Under the pieces are notes generated by a model, which was not told where the DNA came from, searched no databases, and saw nothing but the letters and a program-made list of their open reading frames with translations. Below are positions 4,376 through 10,898 of a DNA stretch of 22,740 nt, piece after piece. The DNA is from a virus. The position numbers were made by a program, and so were the translations under genes. Location of the stretch: the IMG/VR virus record IMGVR_UViG_3300035034_000445, positions 1 through 22,740 of that record; one strand, given 5' to 3'. The stretch's first letter is position 1. Each line of letters opens with the position of its first letter.

Positions 4376-4999
4376 TTATCTACTCCTAAGAATTGAATTG
4401 TATAAAGTACGTCTGTGATCTAACCCAATCGTCCCACCGTTTAATCTTTTGGTACATCCAACAATATCTTTATTATCGGCAAAAGTACTAAGATTATTTT
4501 TATCCCAAAACCAGCATGCACTATCAATAGCCTTCAACGGAAATGAGACATCGTCATACGATCGCAGTGGGCCAGCTTCGCGGATATATGCGATATAGTT
4601 GTCGTGTCCAGTTAGCTGAAATATACCACGCCCGCGAAATCTCCAGCCATCCCCAGAAGAAGGATCGCCATTACCCATACGATTTGCGTATGTCACATTG
4701 GCAATGCCTTCGGGATTACGATGGAGCGCAAGGGCAAGTGCATTAGGACCATCTGCGCCTCGCTTGTTATTAGCGAACCTAGACGGCCACACTACAGCTA
4801 AGCGGTCGGCGGAATAGTTTAAACTTTCTGTGAGACGTGTAAATCCACCAGATTCATGAGACGCTTGAGCTAAAAACATAGCTATGCGATCTGGTGTATC
4901 AATTCCCCACTTAATAAATGCTGCGGCTAATAAGGGCACCCATGTTTCATAAGATGCTCCTTTAGCCGCAACTATTTCCCACACTTCTGGTGTAATCAT
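4376..4999 (-). CDS. GH19 chitinase-like endolysin
   Basis: A glycoside-hydrolase family 19 type lysozyme that cleaves peptidoglycan glycan strands at the end of infection. Signatures are FLAQASHESGGFTRL with the likely catalytic Glu in HESGGF, LNYSADRL with the following WPSRF, YANRMGNGDPSSGDGWRFRG, and RGRGIFQLTGHDNY. I chose ATG 4999 (MITPEVWEIV), which gives the 207-residue layout usual for these phage enzymes and starts 4 nt after the gp14 stop. A longer form from ATG 5053 adds 18 residues overlapping gp14 and has a GAGG sequence only 3 nt away. T4's own lysozyme is unrelated, so this is a replacement lysis module embedded in the neck-gene operon. Confidence 0.88.
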   Translation of the reverse strand: MITPEVWEIVAAKGASYETWVPLLAAAFIKWGIDTPDRIAMFLAQASHESGGFTRLTESLNYSADRLAVVWPSRFANNKRGADGPNALALALHRNPEGIANVTYANRMGNGDPSSGDGWRFRGRGIFQLTGHDNYIAYIREAGPLRSYDDVSFPLKAIDSACWFWDKNNLSTFADNKDIVGCTKRLNGGTIGLDHRRTLYNSILRSR

Positions 5000-5003
5000 T
5001 TGC

Positions 5004-5855
5004 TCATAGTCCACTGAATGGGTTACTTTCTGAGAAACCGACAATCTCGTCATCTTCCTCGTTAATGTATTTATTATCCGATGTAGTATTTGCAGCAGAA
5101 TCTGTTACTCCTATAACTACGCCCACTGATCCAGAGATATCTCCAACGATAGAGGCGGTACTATCAAATGTACCCTTAACGGCATACATGGTTATTATTT
5201 GGTCAATAGTAGAGATGACAGTAGCTGACCAAGTTACTCCTTGACGTATGGTTTCTCCTGGGATGAAATCATCAAAGCCTTCTTCTAATTCCATCGAGGT
5301 TCCTATAGAATATTCCGGCTCATAAGAATCAATTACTGGGTGACCGGTATCAAACGTTTCACCGTTGTATTCAAAGTTACGAACTTTAAGCTTCCACACA
5401 AAAAGCTCACCCAGCTGATAAAATACCGATTCCCCATCGACATAGGAAACTTCAAATGCGCGCATACGCTTGTCGATAGTAGACGGAAACACAATCACAT
5501 CACCCTCTCTCGGTACTTTGATATCCGGAAAATTGGACGTCACTTCTTCGACGAATCGTTTTCTGGCTACAATTAACGTCGCTTCATCGCGTATCTCCAT
5601 ACCAAACTTAGATAGAAATTTATTATCTCCGTCCCAGCCTTCAATATTTTCAAGATAGAATTCAACGGTGACCGCAGTATTAAACGCAGAGCGAGAGTCT
5701 TCACCGAAGAAAGAATCAAAGTTAGTTAGTGTGCGTGGAAGATAAAACATATTTCTACCGTGCACTTGTATGGATTCTATAATCAGATCTGCGAACAGCT
5801 CTTGGTCGGCATCATCCGCAGTATACGAGCTTTCAAAATAATAATTTACTGTCAT
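5004..5855 (-). CDS. 14: Neck protein (gp14-like)
   Basis: A 283-residue neck protein (T4 gp14 is 256) that completes the head-tail connector after DNA packaging. Diagnostic parts are IESIQVHGRNMFYLPR (about 27-42), AFNTAVTVEFYLENIEGW (about 57-74) and FLSKFGMEIRDEATLIVARKRF (about 80-101). The C-terminal 60 residues, rich in small residues and acidic toward the end, look like a variable extension. The ATG overlaps the gp13 stop (ATGA), showing translational coupling. The assignment is strong from family pattern and order. Confidence 0.87.
   Translation of the reverse strand: MTVNYYFESSYTADDADQELFADLIIESIQVHGRNMFYLPRTLTNFDSFFGEDSRSAFNTAVTVEFYLENIEGWDGDNKFLSKFGMEIRDEATLIVARKRFVEEVTSNFPDIKVPREGDVIVFPSTIDKRMRAFEVSYVDGESVFYQLGELFVWKLKVRNFEYNGETFDTGHPVIDSYEPEYSIGTSMELEEGFDDFIPGETIRQGVTWSATVISTIDQIITMYAVKGTFDSTASIVGDISGSVGVVIGVTDSAANTTSDNKYINEEDDEIVGFSESNPFSGL
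5068..5075 (-). promoter_or_regulatory. Possible T4-type late promoter octamer AATAAATA
   Basis: On the minus strand, AATAAATA matches the T4 late consensus TATAAATA at 7 of 8 positions. It lies inside the 3' end of gene 14, where it could give a transcript starting near 5055 for endolysin and holin. Seven-of-eight matches are frequent by chance in this AT content, so support is weak. Confidence 0.25.
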
Positions 5856-6607: not shown

Positions 6608-8200
6608 TTAAACTGCATGACGACCTTCATTTCTAAAAAGAGAAGCAATCATGCTTTCTGTCTGTCTTGCCGGTCTTGGCACTGTCGATTGTTGCGACAC
6701 GCTAGCTGCTTGGCTAGAAGAGCGTGACGTATTTGAATTCTGTGTAGATGCTTGAGGTGGTGTACTTGTAGTTGTTCCACCAGAGTCATTTGACATACTT
6801 AATGCTGTAGGAGCTACGGATTTATCTATAGGAGCCGCTTTAACTGTATTCTGTGGCGCAGTGCTCAATACTCCTCTGTTTGGAACAAGAGACATAAGCT
6901 CAGGTCTACTAATGTGGGCTCTGTTACTACCAACGCCACCGTAGTGCGATACGCCTTTATCTGTTGGGAGTGAAGCCCATTCTTTAGCTATGTTGTTTGC
7001 AAATTCTTCTTTGGTGATTTTGCCACGTCTATACTCAGCTAAGTCGCGACGACCTAGTAATGCCATAAACAGCTTGTCTTGATTTTGTGGGCTGTATTTA
7101 GATTCCAGGTTCAGTCCGGCTTTTTCATAATGCTCCTTCAAAGTGTTACGCAGTATCTGCCACCGACCAACTGCAGTAGACTCATGACCATTCTCTATCA
7201 TAGATTCTTGAAATTTCATGACTTCTCTTATCGTCATGCTAGTCAAGTTGGATTTTTTCTTACCGCCAACCAGTTTCGTATAATCGTTATTAGATTCTTT
7301 TTCACCAATCATATTAGCAAGGCTTACTAGATCATCAGGTATGACACCTGTAGAAATTACCGGAGTGACGACCGACTGCGACGAATTAGTATCTCCCCAT
7401 CCACCAGAAGCTCCAGTTGCCCATGTACCAGTAGCCGACGGCGCTGTAGCCGGATCTTCTACCGTGCCTGCTGTCTTTGGTGTTACAGTGTTAGCATTAA
7501 CAGTAGGCGTCATCCCTTGGCTGCTTGGGTCCATTCTGGAGTCGCGTACTTCGGGGTTTTTAATATCGGACACCAGTTTTTCTGTACTATCTTTAATAGC
7601 TACAGCTTTATCAAAAAACCACTTCTCAAACGCATCGCGTATGCCACCATTAATTGCACTATATATTAATCCGCCTAATGTTGTTTCTTCGCCGTCTGTT
7701 ACAGATGTGACAACTGAGTCTATTCCACCCGCCAAGATTCCGCCCAGGTTCCAACCACCATAAGCAGCACCAGCAATCGCGATAGCAGGGATTGACAATC
7801 CAAGAAATCTACCAATACGCAACAGCGGTCCTAGGCTTTTCCCTAGAGCAAGTGCCAATCCGCCAAACTCTTTTAATAACATTCCACCAATAGCACCCAT
7901 CGCACTTTCTGGGTCTTCTGATTTACTAATAGGACCATTATATTTTAACTTTGAATAGTCATACGCGTTGCGACGCTCCCGCTCATTTTCTACATCATCT
8001 AGGCGGTCATCACCAGCCAAGCGCGTTGATCCGTCTCTCACACCACGCCCAACACTCGCCGGGAACTCTTCTGTGGTGCTATTATTCATATCTGCTACTG
8101 TATATCCTATAGCTAGCCCAAACGATGTTTCTCGTTTGTTGGGATCAGCATCGCTATAAGCGTTTTGTAGCGTAGATGTAATTTTGGACAGATTATTCAT
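6608..8200 (-). CDS. Tail/baseplate protein with lysozyme-like domain and hydrophobic segment
   Basis: A 530-residue protein in three parts. Residues about 101-165 form a long Gly/Ala/Leu-rich hydrophobic stretch (for example LGLSIPAIAIAGAAYGGW), as in tape-measure proteins. Residues about 288-412 look like a lysozyme/transglycosylase-superfamily domain: MIGEKESNNDY with candidate catalytic Glu300 or Glu302, AVGRWQIL, then FMALLGRRDL and IAKEWASLP. The C-terminal 100 residues are low-complexity Ser/Thr/Gln-rich. It follows gp26 and its small overlapping partner and precedes the neck genes. I infer a virion protein that locally opens peptidoglycan at entry, possibly the tape-measure (gp29 role) or a hub protein. 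A weak late-like sequence (GTTAAATA, 8224-8231) lies upstream. Confidence 0.6.
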   Translation of the reverse strand: MNNLSKITSTLQNAYSDADPNKRETSFGLAIGYTVADMNNSTTEEFPASVGRGVRDGSTRLAGDDRLDDVENERERRNAYDYSKLKYNGPISKSEDPESAMGAIGGMLLKEFGGLALALGKSLGPLLRIGRFLGLSIPAIAIAGAAYGGWNLGGILAGGIDSVVTSVTDGEETTLGGLIYSAINGGIRDAFEKWFFDKAVAIKDSTEKLVSDIKNPEVRDSRMDPSSQGMTPTVNANTVTPKTAGTVEDPATAPSATGTWATGASGGWGDTNSSQSVVTPVISTGVIPDDLVSLANMIGEKESNNDYTKLVGGKKKSNLTSMTIREVMKFQESMIENGHESTAVGRWQILRNTLKEHYEKAGLNLESKYSPQNQDKLFMALLGRRDLAEYRRGKITKEEFANNIAKEWASLPTDKGVSHYGGVGSNRAHISRPELMSLVPNRGVLSTAPQNTVKAAPIDKSVAPTALSMSNDSGGTTTSTPPQASTQNSNTSRSSSQAASVSQQSTVPRPARQTESMIASLFRNEGRHAV

Positions 8201-8232: not shown

Positions 8233-8403
8233 TCATTTGCGAGCTTTGTTCTTTTCTTCTACATGCGCATTATACATGTCTATGTATAATGCTCTCTCAA
8301 ACGGAATCATGTTATCAAGCTCCGTAAGAGTAAATGCATTTGCTAAGACGAGGTCGGAATTCGTCTTGTACATATTAAACAGATCTGCATCTCCGACCGT
8401 CAT
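8233..8403 (-). CDS. Small overlapping frame after gp26, probable frameshift extension
   Basis: A 56-residue frame, MTVGDADLFNMYKTNSD to HVEEKNKARK, whose ATG overlaps the gp26 stop (ATGA). It contains LTELDNMIPFERALYIDMY near residues 27-45, a short amphipathic pattern like the small proteins found after gp26 in other T4-like phages. It has no ribosome-binding site at initiation distance: the only purine-rich sequence, AGAGGA, is 17 nt upstream. The frame is -1 relative to gene 26, and a U UUU UUA slippery heptamer lies immediately before the overlap. It may therefore be made mainly as the C-terminal extension of a 296-residue gp26 fusion, as with lambda G/GT tail chaperones. Independent initiation by re-starting at ATGA is the alternative. 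Confidence 0.72.
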   Translation of the reverse strand: MTVGDADLFNMYKTNSDLVLANAFTLTELDNMIPFERALYIDMYNAHVEEKNKARK

Positions 8404-9122
8404 ACTAAAAAACCAATGAGTCCTCTAACATTATACTCAAAGTCTTTACCACATACTTTGCATTTTGTTTTTATATCAGCAGCAGTAACTGGAGCTGCAC
8501 TCAAGAAGTCTTTTAGCTTTTTGGTAGCGGGTGATGGAAGATCATCCACAAACTCGGCAAATTCTTCTTTTGTAAAATCGGATTTATTGAACACGGTATC
8601 ACCGTCAATAACCGCGTCAGTCATTTCATACAACGCATGTTCAAAAGAGTCAATGACTTTAACACGCATCTGCACAGCAACGGTTTCTGATAACCTTACT
8701 ATCCATGTATTATTTTTGCGTGTTGCATGTTTTTCCATTTCTTCTAAATTTACTACATATGCAGCATCAATAGAAAATCCAGCTTTTAAGACTTTAGGGC
8801 ATTTTTCTTCGTACGTTGCTGGATATTTGCACGAGGATTCGGCTATGTTATAATTTACTTCTACTGAGCTGCCAACAGAACATGCTCTAATTTTTAGATA
8901 TGCCCACTCAACATCTGCTGGGTGATCTTCTTTCGGGTTTACGTCCGAACATATAGTGATAATTTGATATGCGGCAGTCATTTTATCATCAACAGAATCT
9001 CCCTGCATACCCATCAAAAGAATCTTCTCTTCTTTTACGGTATATGGGCGATAGGTATAATTTCGCCCAGACACAGGTAGACTGTCATTATAGTTAGGCA
9101 TGTCAAGTTTTGGTAATTTCAT
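8400..9122 (-). CDS. 26: Baseplate hub assembly protein (gp26-like)
   Basis: A 240-residue protein related to T4 gp26 (208), needed for assembly of the central baseplate hub. The N-terminus is diagnostic: KLPKLDMPNYNDSLPVSGR, then YTYRPYTVKEEKILLMG (about 23-39). The middle contains a second hub-type region with NYNIAESSCKYPA, and the C-terminus carries a CKVC pair and ends in RGLIGFLV. A GCGGAG site lies 6 nt before the ATG. Its last codons include the slippery sequence and overlap the next frame, so a minority 296-residue product is predicted. The gene sits between the tail-tube-type protein and the lysozyme-domain protein, all parts of tail assembly. Confidence 0.83.
   Translation of the reverse strand: MKLPKLDMPNYNDSLPVSGRNYTYRPYTVKEEKILLMGMQGDSVDDKMTAAYQIITICSDVNPKEDHPADVEWAYLKIRACSVGSSVEVNYNIAESSCKYPATYEEKCPKVLKAGFSIDAAYVVNLEEMEKHATRKNNTWIVRLSETVAVQMRVKVIDSFEHALYEMTDAVIDGDTVFNKSDFTKEEFAEFVDDLPSPATKKLKDFLSAAPVTAADIKTKCKVCGKDFEYNVRGLIGFLV
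8406..8426 (-). promoter_or_regulatory. Candidate programmed -1 ribosomal frameshift signal
   Basis: On the minus strand the zero-frame codons GGT TTT TTA form the slippery heptamer T TTT TTA (8412-8406), a perfect X XXY YYZ motif. AGAGGA (8426-8421), a Shine-Dalgarno-like hexamer, ends 8 nt upstream of the heptamer, similar to the spacing of the dnaX stimulator. After a -1 slip the next codons are AGT ATG ACG, directly entering the 56-aa frame. I see no strong downstream pseudoknot. Confidence 0.6.
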
Positions 9123-9144: not shown

Positions 9145-9825
9145 TTAAGGACCAATGAGTGTAGATGTGGCAGCAGCAACAGCACCCCGAATCAAAGTAG
9201 AACCTTGATCCAAAACACCAAGATCACGAGACGTCCATTCATGAAATGCTAACTCAATTGGAATTACTAAATGCTGATTAGTTGATGCCCAGCTCATCTG
9301 TGAACTATTTACCGCTACTGGATAACATTCTTTCAATACCCATTCATGTGTCGCAAATCCATTGGATGCATATGACCTAATAATGAAGTCAGTATGACAG
9401 TTGTCATAATACTGTATCTGGTAGCCATTAGTGCTATCAAATATGCGCGTGTGCCATGCGTCAAAGAAATCCCGCATCTGAAACTTTTCGCTTTCTATGA
9501 TTTCCATATTCAGTGTAGAATAGACAAGACCAAACGGAATTAATCTCTGTGGTCCGTTAGCGAATCTTGGGACTGTCTCTAACTGCCTAGACGGCAAGTC
9601 AATAGATTGTACGCGAAATCTAACGTTATTGAATGATCCACCTAAGGAGAAAATATCCGAATCACCGCTAAAGATGTTGATCAGTCTGCCTATGATAGAT
9701 GGGGCGTTTACTTGTAGGCACCGTGGCACATCTGCAAAATACGCCTCATAGTATGCCGGCGACGCAATTGCGTTAAAGAACGGATTTAATGATTCATTTC
9801 TGAATCTGTTTGCATTGAACGCCAT
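9145..9825 (-). CDS. Tail-tube-fold baseplate protein (gp54-like)
   Basis: A 226-residue protein with the pattern of the T4 tail-tube family (gp19, gp48, gp54). The central sequence has SIDLPSRQLETVPRF (about 74-88), LNMEIIESEKFQMRDFFDAWH (about 105-125) and, near the end, WVLKECYPVAVNSSQMSW followed by VIPIELAFHEW, the classic end of a tube domain. It is longer than gp19 (163) and has an extended N-terminus beginning NRFRNESLNPFF, more like the baseplate tube initiator gp54. It is placed directly before gp26. I favour a gp54/gp48-type role as the platform on which the tube polymerises; a second tail-tube protein is possible. Confidence 0.55.
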   Translation of the reverse strand: MAFNANRFRNESLNPFFNAIASPAYYEAYFADVPRCLQVNAPSIIGRLINIFSGDSDIFSLGGSFNNVRFRVQSIDLPSRQLETVPRFANGPQRLIPFGLVYSTLNMEIIESEKFQMRDFFDAWHTRIFDSTNGYQIQYYDNCHTDFIIRSYASNGFATHEWVLKECYPVAVNSSQMSWASTNQHLVIPIELAFHEWTSRDLGVLDQGSTLIRGAVAAATSTLIGP

Positions 9826-9828
9826 CTC

Positions 9829-10428
9829 TTAAGACCTTTTGATAATCTTGCGTGAATCTTTATATACTTGATCAGCAGTAGCACCCTGCCATTGAGCTAC
9901 GGGCAAAAATATAGCTATCTCCCAATAGTTAGCCGGGACCAAGATAAATTGTGTTGTGAAATTCGATTTTAGGTATTGCTTAACACATGGTGCAAATGCT
10001 TTAAATTTGCTAGATGAAGAAACAAGCCGGTATGATAGTTTTACTTTAGTTTTTTCGTCAAGCTTGTCATTATTGGTTATTGTGTGCAGCGCATCTAATA
10101 TCTTAATACGATATTCCATTGGCATATAATGAAAATTCAATCCAATGATTGAAGTCTTGGTCTCAGACACAGGTATAACTAAGGGCATAGCATCCCAATA
10201 TGGTAATGTGTCTTTATGCTTTGCATTATACCCAAAAAAGTACATATGTCCTGGACGCATCTTTGTTACTAGCTTAACTTCTTTAGACGCGACGAGATCA
10301 GCATAAGACACCTTTCTTGACATATGCGTTCTAATGTATCCTTTAAACCACGCCAAAGCACCCTGTACTTTTGTTGCAATACCGGCGGAAGCTGCTTTTG
10401 ATACTGCGTCAGCAAATTTTACTTTCAT
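9829..10428 (-). CDS. Conserved T4-like virion protein in the gene 53 position
   Basis: A 199-residue protein starting at an ATGA overlap with the gp4 stop. Characteristic blocks are MRPGHMYFFGYNAKHKDTLPYWD (about 57-79), GLNFHYMPMEYRIKILDAL (about 97-115) and FAPCVKQYL (about 144-152), ending in KDSRKIIKRS. I recognise this as a family common in T4-like phages of aquatic bacteria, next to gp4. By T4 order (4 then 53) it holds the place of baseplate wedge gp53, whose length is similar (196), but I do not see clear gp53 sequence. Head completion (gp2-type) is another option. It is probably structural or an assembly factor. Confidence 0.5.
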   Translation of the reverse strand: MKVKFADAVSKAASAGIATKVQGALAWFKGYIRTHMSRKVSYADLVASKEVKLVTKMRPGHMYFFGYNAKHKDTLPYWDAMPLVIPVSETKTSIIGLNFHYMPMEYRIKILDALHTITNNDKLDEKTKVKLSYRLVSSSSKFKAFAPCVKQYLKSNFTTQFILVPANYWEIAIFLPVAQWQGATADQVYKDSRKIIKRS

Positions 10429-10898
10429 CGTTTACCCTTTGGTAGAGTACCAGGAAGATTGATCCCAATACTCTTTAATGTATGCTCGGTAAATACCGCA
10501 AAGTCCCATCCACGTTTTGCAGCGTACTTTTCAGCTGCAAGCCACTTTGCAATGTTGACGGCGTATGTCTTAGTCTCTTCAATTACAGCCGAGCGTTTCT
10601 TGCCTTTCTTAAATATGGGTTTCTTTGTTTGGTGTGCCGGTTTGATCTCTACTAGAAGAATCTTACCACTAGCAAACTCCACTTTGACATCAACAAAATA
10701 TCTATGCTGTCTATCATCAACTGGAGAAATGTATGGAATGAAGAACTCTTCGCTCGAGAACTTTACTACATCGGGGTTAAGACAACACCACTTAAAGAAA
10801 AGATTCTCCCATGAAGATCTATACACAATGTTAGTATAGTCGCCTTCATATTTGTGGCGATGTTCTACTAACATGTTAAATTTGCCAGAATATGCCAT
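10425..10898 (-). CDS. 4: Head completion protein (gp4-like, nuclease fold)
   Basis: A 157-residue protein (T4 gp4 is 150) required to finish filled heads before tail joining. The signature runs YTNIVYRSSWENLFFKWC (about 21-38), EEFFIPYISPVDDRQHRYFVDV (about 50-71), ILLVEIKPAHQTK (about 79-91) and ETKTYAVNIAKWLAAEKYA with GWDFAVFTE. The D-x-(n)-E-x-K arrangement (VDVKVEF, then VEIKP) resembles the PD-(D/E)XK/TnsA-type endonuclease core, as known for this family. AGGA lies 5 nt before the ATG. The gene begins a structural operon preceded by a terminator containing a late-type promoter. Confidence 0.88.
   Translation of the reverse strand: MAYSGKFNMLVEHRHKYEGDYTNIVYRSSWENLFFKWCCLNPDVVKFSSEEFFIPYISPVDDRQHRYFVDVKVEFASGKILLVEIKPAHQTKKPIFKKGKKRSAVIEETKTYAVNIAKWLAAEKYAAKRGWDFAVFTEHTLKSIGINLPGTLPKGKR

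Follow-up and report, generated by a model that had tools for sequence, protein, structure and literature searches.

The window, by which we mean the whole stretch of DNA that was analysed, is a 22,740-base IMG/VR virus fragment (IMGVR_UViG_3300035034_000445) whose genes lie almost entirely on the minus strand. Read 5′ to 3′ on that strand, the genes of interest encode a gp4-like protein, a gp2-like DNA end protector, a tail-tube-like protein, gp26, a small 56-aa frame, a 530-aa protein and neck proteins (Table 1). A near-DNA search of INPHARED with the window as query returned no matches, and a scan of viral contigs with a single sequence found no relatives.

Table 1. Features at the gene 26 locus, in window coordinates.
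Feature	Position	Strand	Basis
gp26, predicted short form (TAC-N, lambda G-like), 240 aa	8400..9122	-	PF12322 E 2.8e-32; phrog_150 E 4.2e-33
Slippery heptamer T TTT TTA in gp26 phase	8406..8412	-	Sequence and conservation in relatives
SD-like AGAGGA, probable stimulator	8421..8426	-	Sequence; synonymous bias in relatives
Predicted C-terminal extension (T-like, gp51 domain), 56-aa frame in -1	8233..8403	-	phrog_634 E 2.3e-14
Possible downstream stem GGTCGGA...TCCGACC, ~7 nt past the heptamer	8345..8400	-	MFE -15.5 kcal/mol
530-aa protein, probable tape measure protein with C-terminal lysin-like domain	6608..8200	-	Inferred from position
Tail tube / gp54-like protein, upstream of gp26	9145..9825	-	phrog_45 tail tube E 4.5e-23; PF06841 E 4e-5

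A sequence-only reading of this DNA had proposed that gp26 is extended by programmed -1 frameshifting at a U UUU UUA heptamer near its stop codon, and the sequence bears this description out base for base. The 3′ end of gene 26 on the minus strand reads GTT AGA GGA CTC ATT GGT TTT TTA GTA TGA CGG, in which the heptamer T TTT TTA stands in the phase of gene 26, with the single codon GTA between it and the stop codon TGA. The other elements named in that reading are also present: AGAGGA ends 8 nt before the heptamer, and after a slip the -1 frame (AGT ATG ACG...) is open for 57 codons, consisting of a serine and the 56-aa frame, so that the fusion would comprise 239 + 57 = 296 aa. The small frame was likewise said to lack a normally spaced ribosome-binding site, and its ATG indeed has a match to the SD sequence of only 3 nt at normal spacing. 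No Rfam family is found at the shift site. Within the window, 10 in-frame X XXY YYZ sites (Y being A or T, and Z not G) occur in 30 genes with 6788 codons, and the gp26 site is the only one of the 10 within 30 nt of a stop codon. We estimate the chance of such a site at roughly 1% per gene end, which is a weak argument alone; it is the comparative evidence from relatives that places the site far beyond chance.

We compared the gene with relatives in 20 annotated phage regions that carry it and in about 315 IMG/VR loci (the window and the first nine named phages are counted in the figures below). In a first analysis, the extension was detectable downstream of 320 of 325 gp26 sequences, each time in the -1 frame relative to gp26; the five remaining loci break off no more than about 50 bases from the gp26 stop. 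After removal of identical sequences, every one of 293 distinct loci has an in-phase heptamer of the form U UUU UU[C/U/A] (U UUU UUC in 169, U UUU UUU in 114 and U UUU UUA in 10), which ends 0-24 nt, mostly 3 nt, upstream of the gp26 stop and within the open region of the -1 frame. Relatives that keep the small frame and have lost the heptamer, or have the frame elsewhere, would speak against the frameshift; heptamer, frame and place are kept in 293/293. Since the median pairwise identity among 187 representatives (chosen to share under 70% aa identity) is 36%, this conservation does not reflect recent shared ancestry.

Comparison of the 3′ end of gene 26 in named phages, which had been suggested as a check, gives the same picture. 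Among named phages without a separate fused gene for the long form, 17 of 18 have the site, including P-SSM2, Cr30, HTVC008M, phiM7, Mosig, Milchi, Vibrio F86, the KVP40-like PG216, Aeh1, pf16, P10VF and phiM9 (U UUU UUG), S-WAM1, S-BM3, nACB2 (Ackermannviridae) and XG4, the closest relative at 33%. The exception is Klebsiella phage MDA2066 (L330:3432-4400), which has the extension in -1 and no canonical heptamer, its gene ending in GAG ATT TTC ATT TAA TTT TTG; this phage may use either another slip site or another mechanism. As the signal is kept in all relatives examined save this one and the T4 type, we consider it real. In S-WAM1 and DSL-LC03, the extension domain is present in -1, yet no gene is annotated between gp26 and the next gene. 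Annotations of T4-like phages would thus either split one protein in two or omit its second half.

Conservation around the heptamer suggests that further elements assist the shift. Relatives have an SD-like sequence 8-10 nt upstream of the heptamer (GAGGG at about 10 nt), with a mean SD match of 4.0 at the site against 2.9 in the control. In the codons that form it, Glu is written as GAG in 62% of cases compared with 25% elsewhere, and Gly as GGA or GGG in 63% compared with 35% elsewhere, so the base sequence appears to be selected beyond the peptide. Downstream of the heptamer, the RNA is predicted to fold more stably than its shuffles (z -1.53, SEM 0.17, n=120), whereas upstream sequence is not (z -0.10), and strong stems (score at least 15) are found in 53% of representatives against 16-33% of control windows. 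In the cyanophage clade of P-SSM2, an 11-bp stem begins 5 nt past the heptamer; it is 81% paired compared with 26-43% in slid controls, and it covaries: TA, GC and AT all occur at one pair. Strong stems are clearly aligned in this clade only, and we therefore rejected a universal downstream hairpin; the stem in the window, with a z of -1.37, is not significant alone.

The frame that would be reached by the shift has a recognizable identity. It matches phrog_634, annotated as ‘baseplate hub assembly catalyst’, and the end of phrog_150, the gp26 family (E 0.0023). Judged by this similarity, the 56-aa frame has known kin and represents the domain found at the C-terminus of T4 gp51. T4 gp51 itself consists of a gp26-type PF12322 domain (residues 1-201) plus the extension, with residues 147-246 matching phrog_634, while T4 gp26 is the PF12322 domain without the extension, that is, the short form. 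The fused long form thus exists as an ordinary protein in T4. The two T4 genes encode domains homologous to those at our locus, but they are separate genes on opposite strands and lack the heptamer, which is absent from both T4 and RB43, the two phages with a fused gp51. The extension also behaves as a protein-coding sequence when read in -1: within the P-SSM2 clade it shows purifying selection in this frame (median dN/dS 0.12), with divergences of 0.21, 0.10 and 0.41 at the three codon positions.

It could be argued that the heptamer has no role and arises as a by-product where an FF or FL peptide is conserved. The C-terminal FF of gp26 is indeed conserved in the protein, and the pattern G...FF even extends to T4. 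Because of this conservation we tested silent positions. T4 encodes the same residues as GAG TTC TTT, which contains no heptamer, whereas all 187 representatives have xxT TTT, compared with 43% expected given their amino acids and codon usage (log10 P about -72, a figure not to be taken literally, as the 187 sequences are not fully independent and were found by the same heptamer rule, though not selected for it). Of the 260 F-[F/L] pairs at other places in gp26, just 36 would make a heptamer. The by-product explanation therefore has almost no probability in our judgement. Nor do we give much more credence to the idea that RNA polymerase, rather than the ribosome, slips on the T run and so restores the frame. 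Runs of T can provoke transcriptional slippage, but a run of six T is short for this purpose, and 177 of the 293 runs are only 6 T long. Moreover, the run always stands in X XXY YYZ phase, while other runs of at least six T in gp26 mostly begin at codon position 1, and an SD-like element acts on ribosomes.

A different objection concerns the ATG of the small frame, which overlaps the gp26 stop (ATGA) in the window and in some relatives, and which could allow the frame to be translated as a separate gene by termination and reinitiation, with no fusion; public records do list the small frame as a gene of its own, ‘gp51’. However, 102 of the 293 loci have no ATG, GTG or TTG from the heptamer up to domain residue 12, and an SD match of at least 4 nt at normal spacing is seen in only 6 of the remaining 191, against 168 of 244 gp26 starts. 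In 27 loci that lack a start codon, the -1 frame is open only from a point within 3 nt of the heptamer onwards, so that a shift in these loci has to occur at the heptamer. Reinitiation would also require neither the heptamer nor the synonymous codons that are conserved with it, and T4 gp51 is fused to a gp26-like domain. As the whole explanation, a separate gene is thus very improbable. A combination, in which frameshifting makes the fusion and the overlapping ATG, where present, yields some free small protein, is less improbable though still unlikely. The window and XG4 both retain an ATG near the stop in the -1 frame, and some reinitiation could take place in the window since its ATG overlaps the stop; against this, the window ATG has the short SD match mentioned above, and start codons are not conserved at that place. 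We conclude that a -1 frameshift in gene 26 very probably produces the predicted 296-aa long form of a chaperone.

The assignment to tail assembly chaperones (TAC) draws on a predicted fold and on gene order. An AlphaFold2 model of gp26, built from 67 sequences, has a pLDDT of 85.8. Among 640 PDB chains, its best fold match is the HK97 tail assembly chaperone 2OB9 (Z 7.5 over 79 residues, 4.0 A), followed by YqbN 3KLU (Z 6.7) and then by a match with a Z of 2.7; these values come from a predicted model, cover residues 1-83 only and are moderate, being below 8. Foldseek also ranks 2OB9 first, with a non-significant E-value, and a PDB sequence search with a gp26 profile gave nothing relevant, with no match to a solved chaperone. 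Just upstream of the shift site, the C-terminal part of gp26 contains a CxxC motif (CKVCGKDFEY), with counterparts in Milchi (CSECG), Vibrio F86 (CPKCG) and T4 gp26 (CPECG); the motif is absent from P-SSM2 types.

The 530-aa protein that follows is, by its position only, the probable tape measure protein and chaperone partner. Hydrophobic segments are visible in its sequence, and the Cr30 and HTVC008M proteins at the same gene position match tape-measure families. A family search with the 530-aa protein gave no matches to tape-measure families; its residues 269-418 match phrog_90 endolysin (E 2.6e-17). Tape-measure homology was also sought by phmmer against downstream ORFs and was rejected, as the inspected matches fall in the lysin-like part.

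The comparison with lambda G and GT that the sequence-only reading drew holds at three levels: the gene order, the predicted HK97-like fold and the existence of T4 gp51 as a real fused protein. As in systems of the lambda G/GT and HK97 gp13 type, the order is tube, chaperone and extension, a heptamer lies near the end of the short gene, the predicted shift is to -1 and the domain that it would reach is small. There are also differences. The slippery motif of lambda is G GGA AAG, whereas the heptamer here is U UUU UUN, and gp26 is longer than the lambda-type proteins, with a beta-rich second half. The arrangement further resembles the E. coli dnaX cassette, in which an SD-like element about 10 nt upstream accompanies a heptamer and a downstream stem (the latter aligned here in one clade), but the heptamer sequences differ, and dnaX frameshifting leads to a shortened product while the shift here would lengthen the protein.

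With the signal and its conservation established, along with the homology of the domain and a chaperone-like predicted fold, we infer how such a system might work. Gene 26 would encode a short tail assembly chaperone. A fraction of ribosomes, paused by pairing of AGAGGA with 16S rRNA, would slip on U UUU UUA into the -1 frame just upstream of the stop, with some efficiency, and read 57 further codons, giving the long form whose added domain equals the C-terminus of T4 gp51. As with lambda G and GT, the tape measure protein would then be coated by the short and long forms together while the tail is being assembled.

The general claim for T4-like phages is already published, to judge from papers that cite it. 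The identification of tail assembly chaperones in T4-like phages goes back to Vladimirov et al. (2022, Virology 566:9; via PMC10885494 and PMC12846349). PMC10885494, which refers to this work by Vladimirov, Gautam and Davidson, states that frameshifting is replaced in some T4-like phages by a pair of TAC genes, a short one and a long fused one; PMC12846349 cites the same work for poly-T -1 signals in the TAC-N genes of T4-like phages. The short and long TAC genes described there are presumably the same pair as ours. The breadth of conservation, the selection at silent sites and in the SD-like element, and the covarying hairpin were not found in the literature searched, in which Vladimirov et al. 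2022 is represented through the papers that cite it.

These observations also bear on T4 itself, where a description from 2010 lists gp51 as an essential protein of the hub whose function was unknown (PMC3004832). On our reading, T4 gp51 represents the long form of a tail assembly chaperone, a form that would arise by frameshifting in many other T4-like phages, and this role can consequently be tested in T4. We lean towards the view, without great confidence, that a frameshifted gene 26/51 pair is ancestral in T4-like phages (Kyanoviridae, pelagiphages, KVP40 and Aeh1 types, Pootjesviridae and part of the Ackermannviridae), with a signal made up of an SD-like element and U UUU UUN, joined in some clades by a covarying hairpin as a third part, and that the shift was lost in T4 and its close kin when the gene was duplicated and one copy became fused to the extension. 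If so, the essential T4 gene 51 would be a fossilised frameshift product.

Two further observations concern other genes of the window. A 225-aa endolysin-like frame shares 50 nt with the end of a gp14-like gene (4376-5053 and 5004-5855), and may in fact start at a more internal position. The gp4-like head completion protein (10425-10898) matches the N-terminal domain of TnsA-like endonucleases (PF08722, 4e-19).
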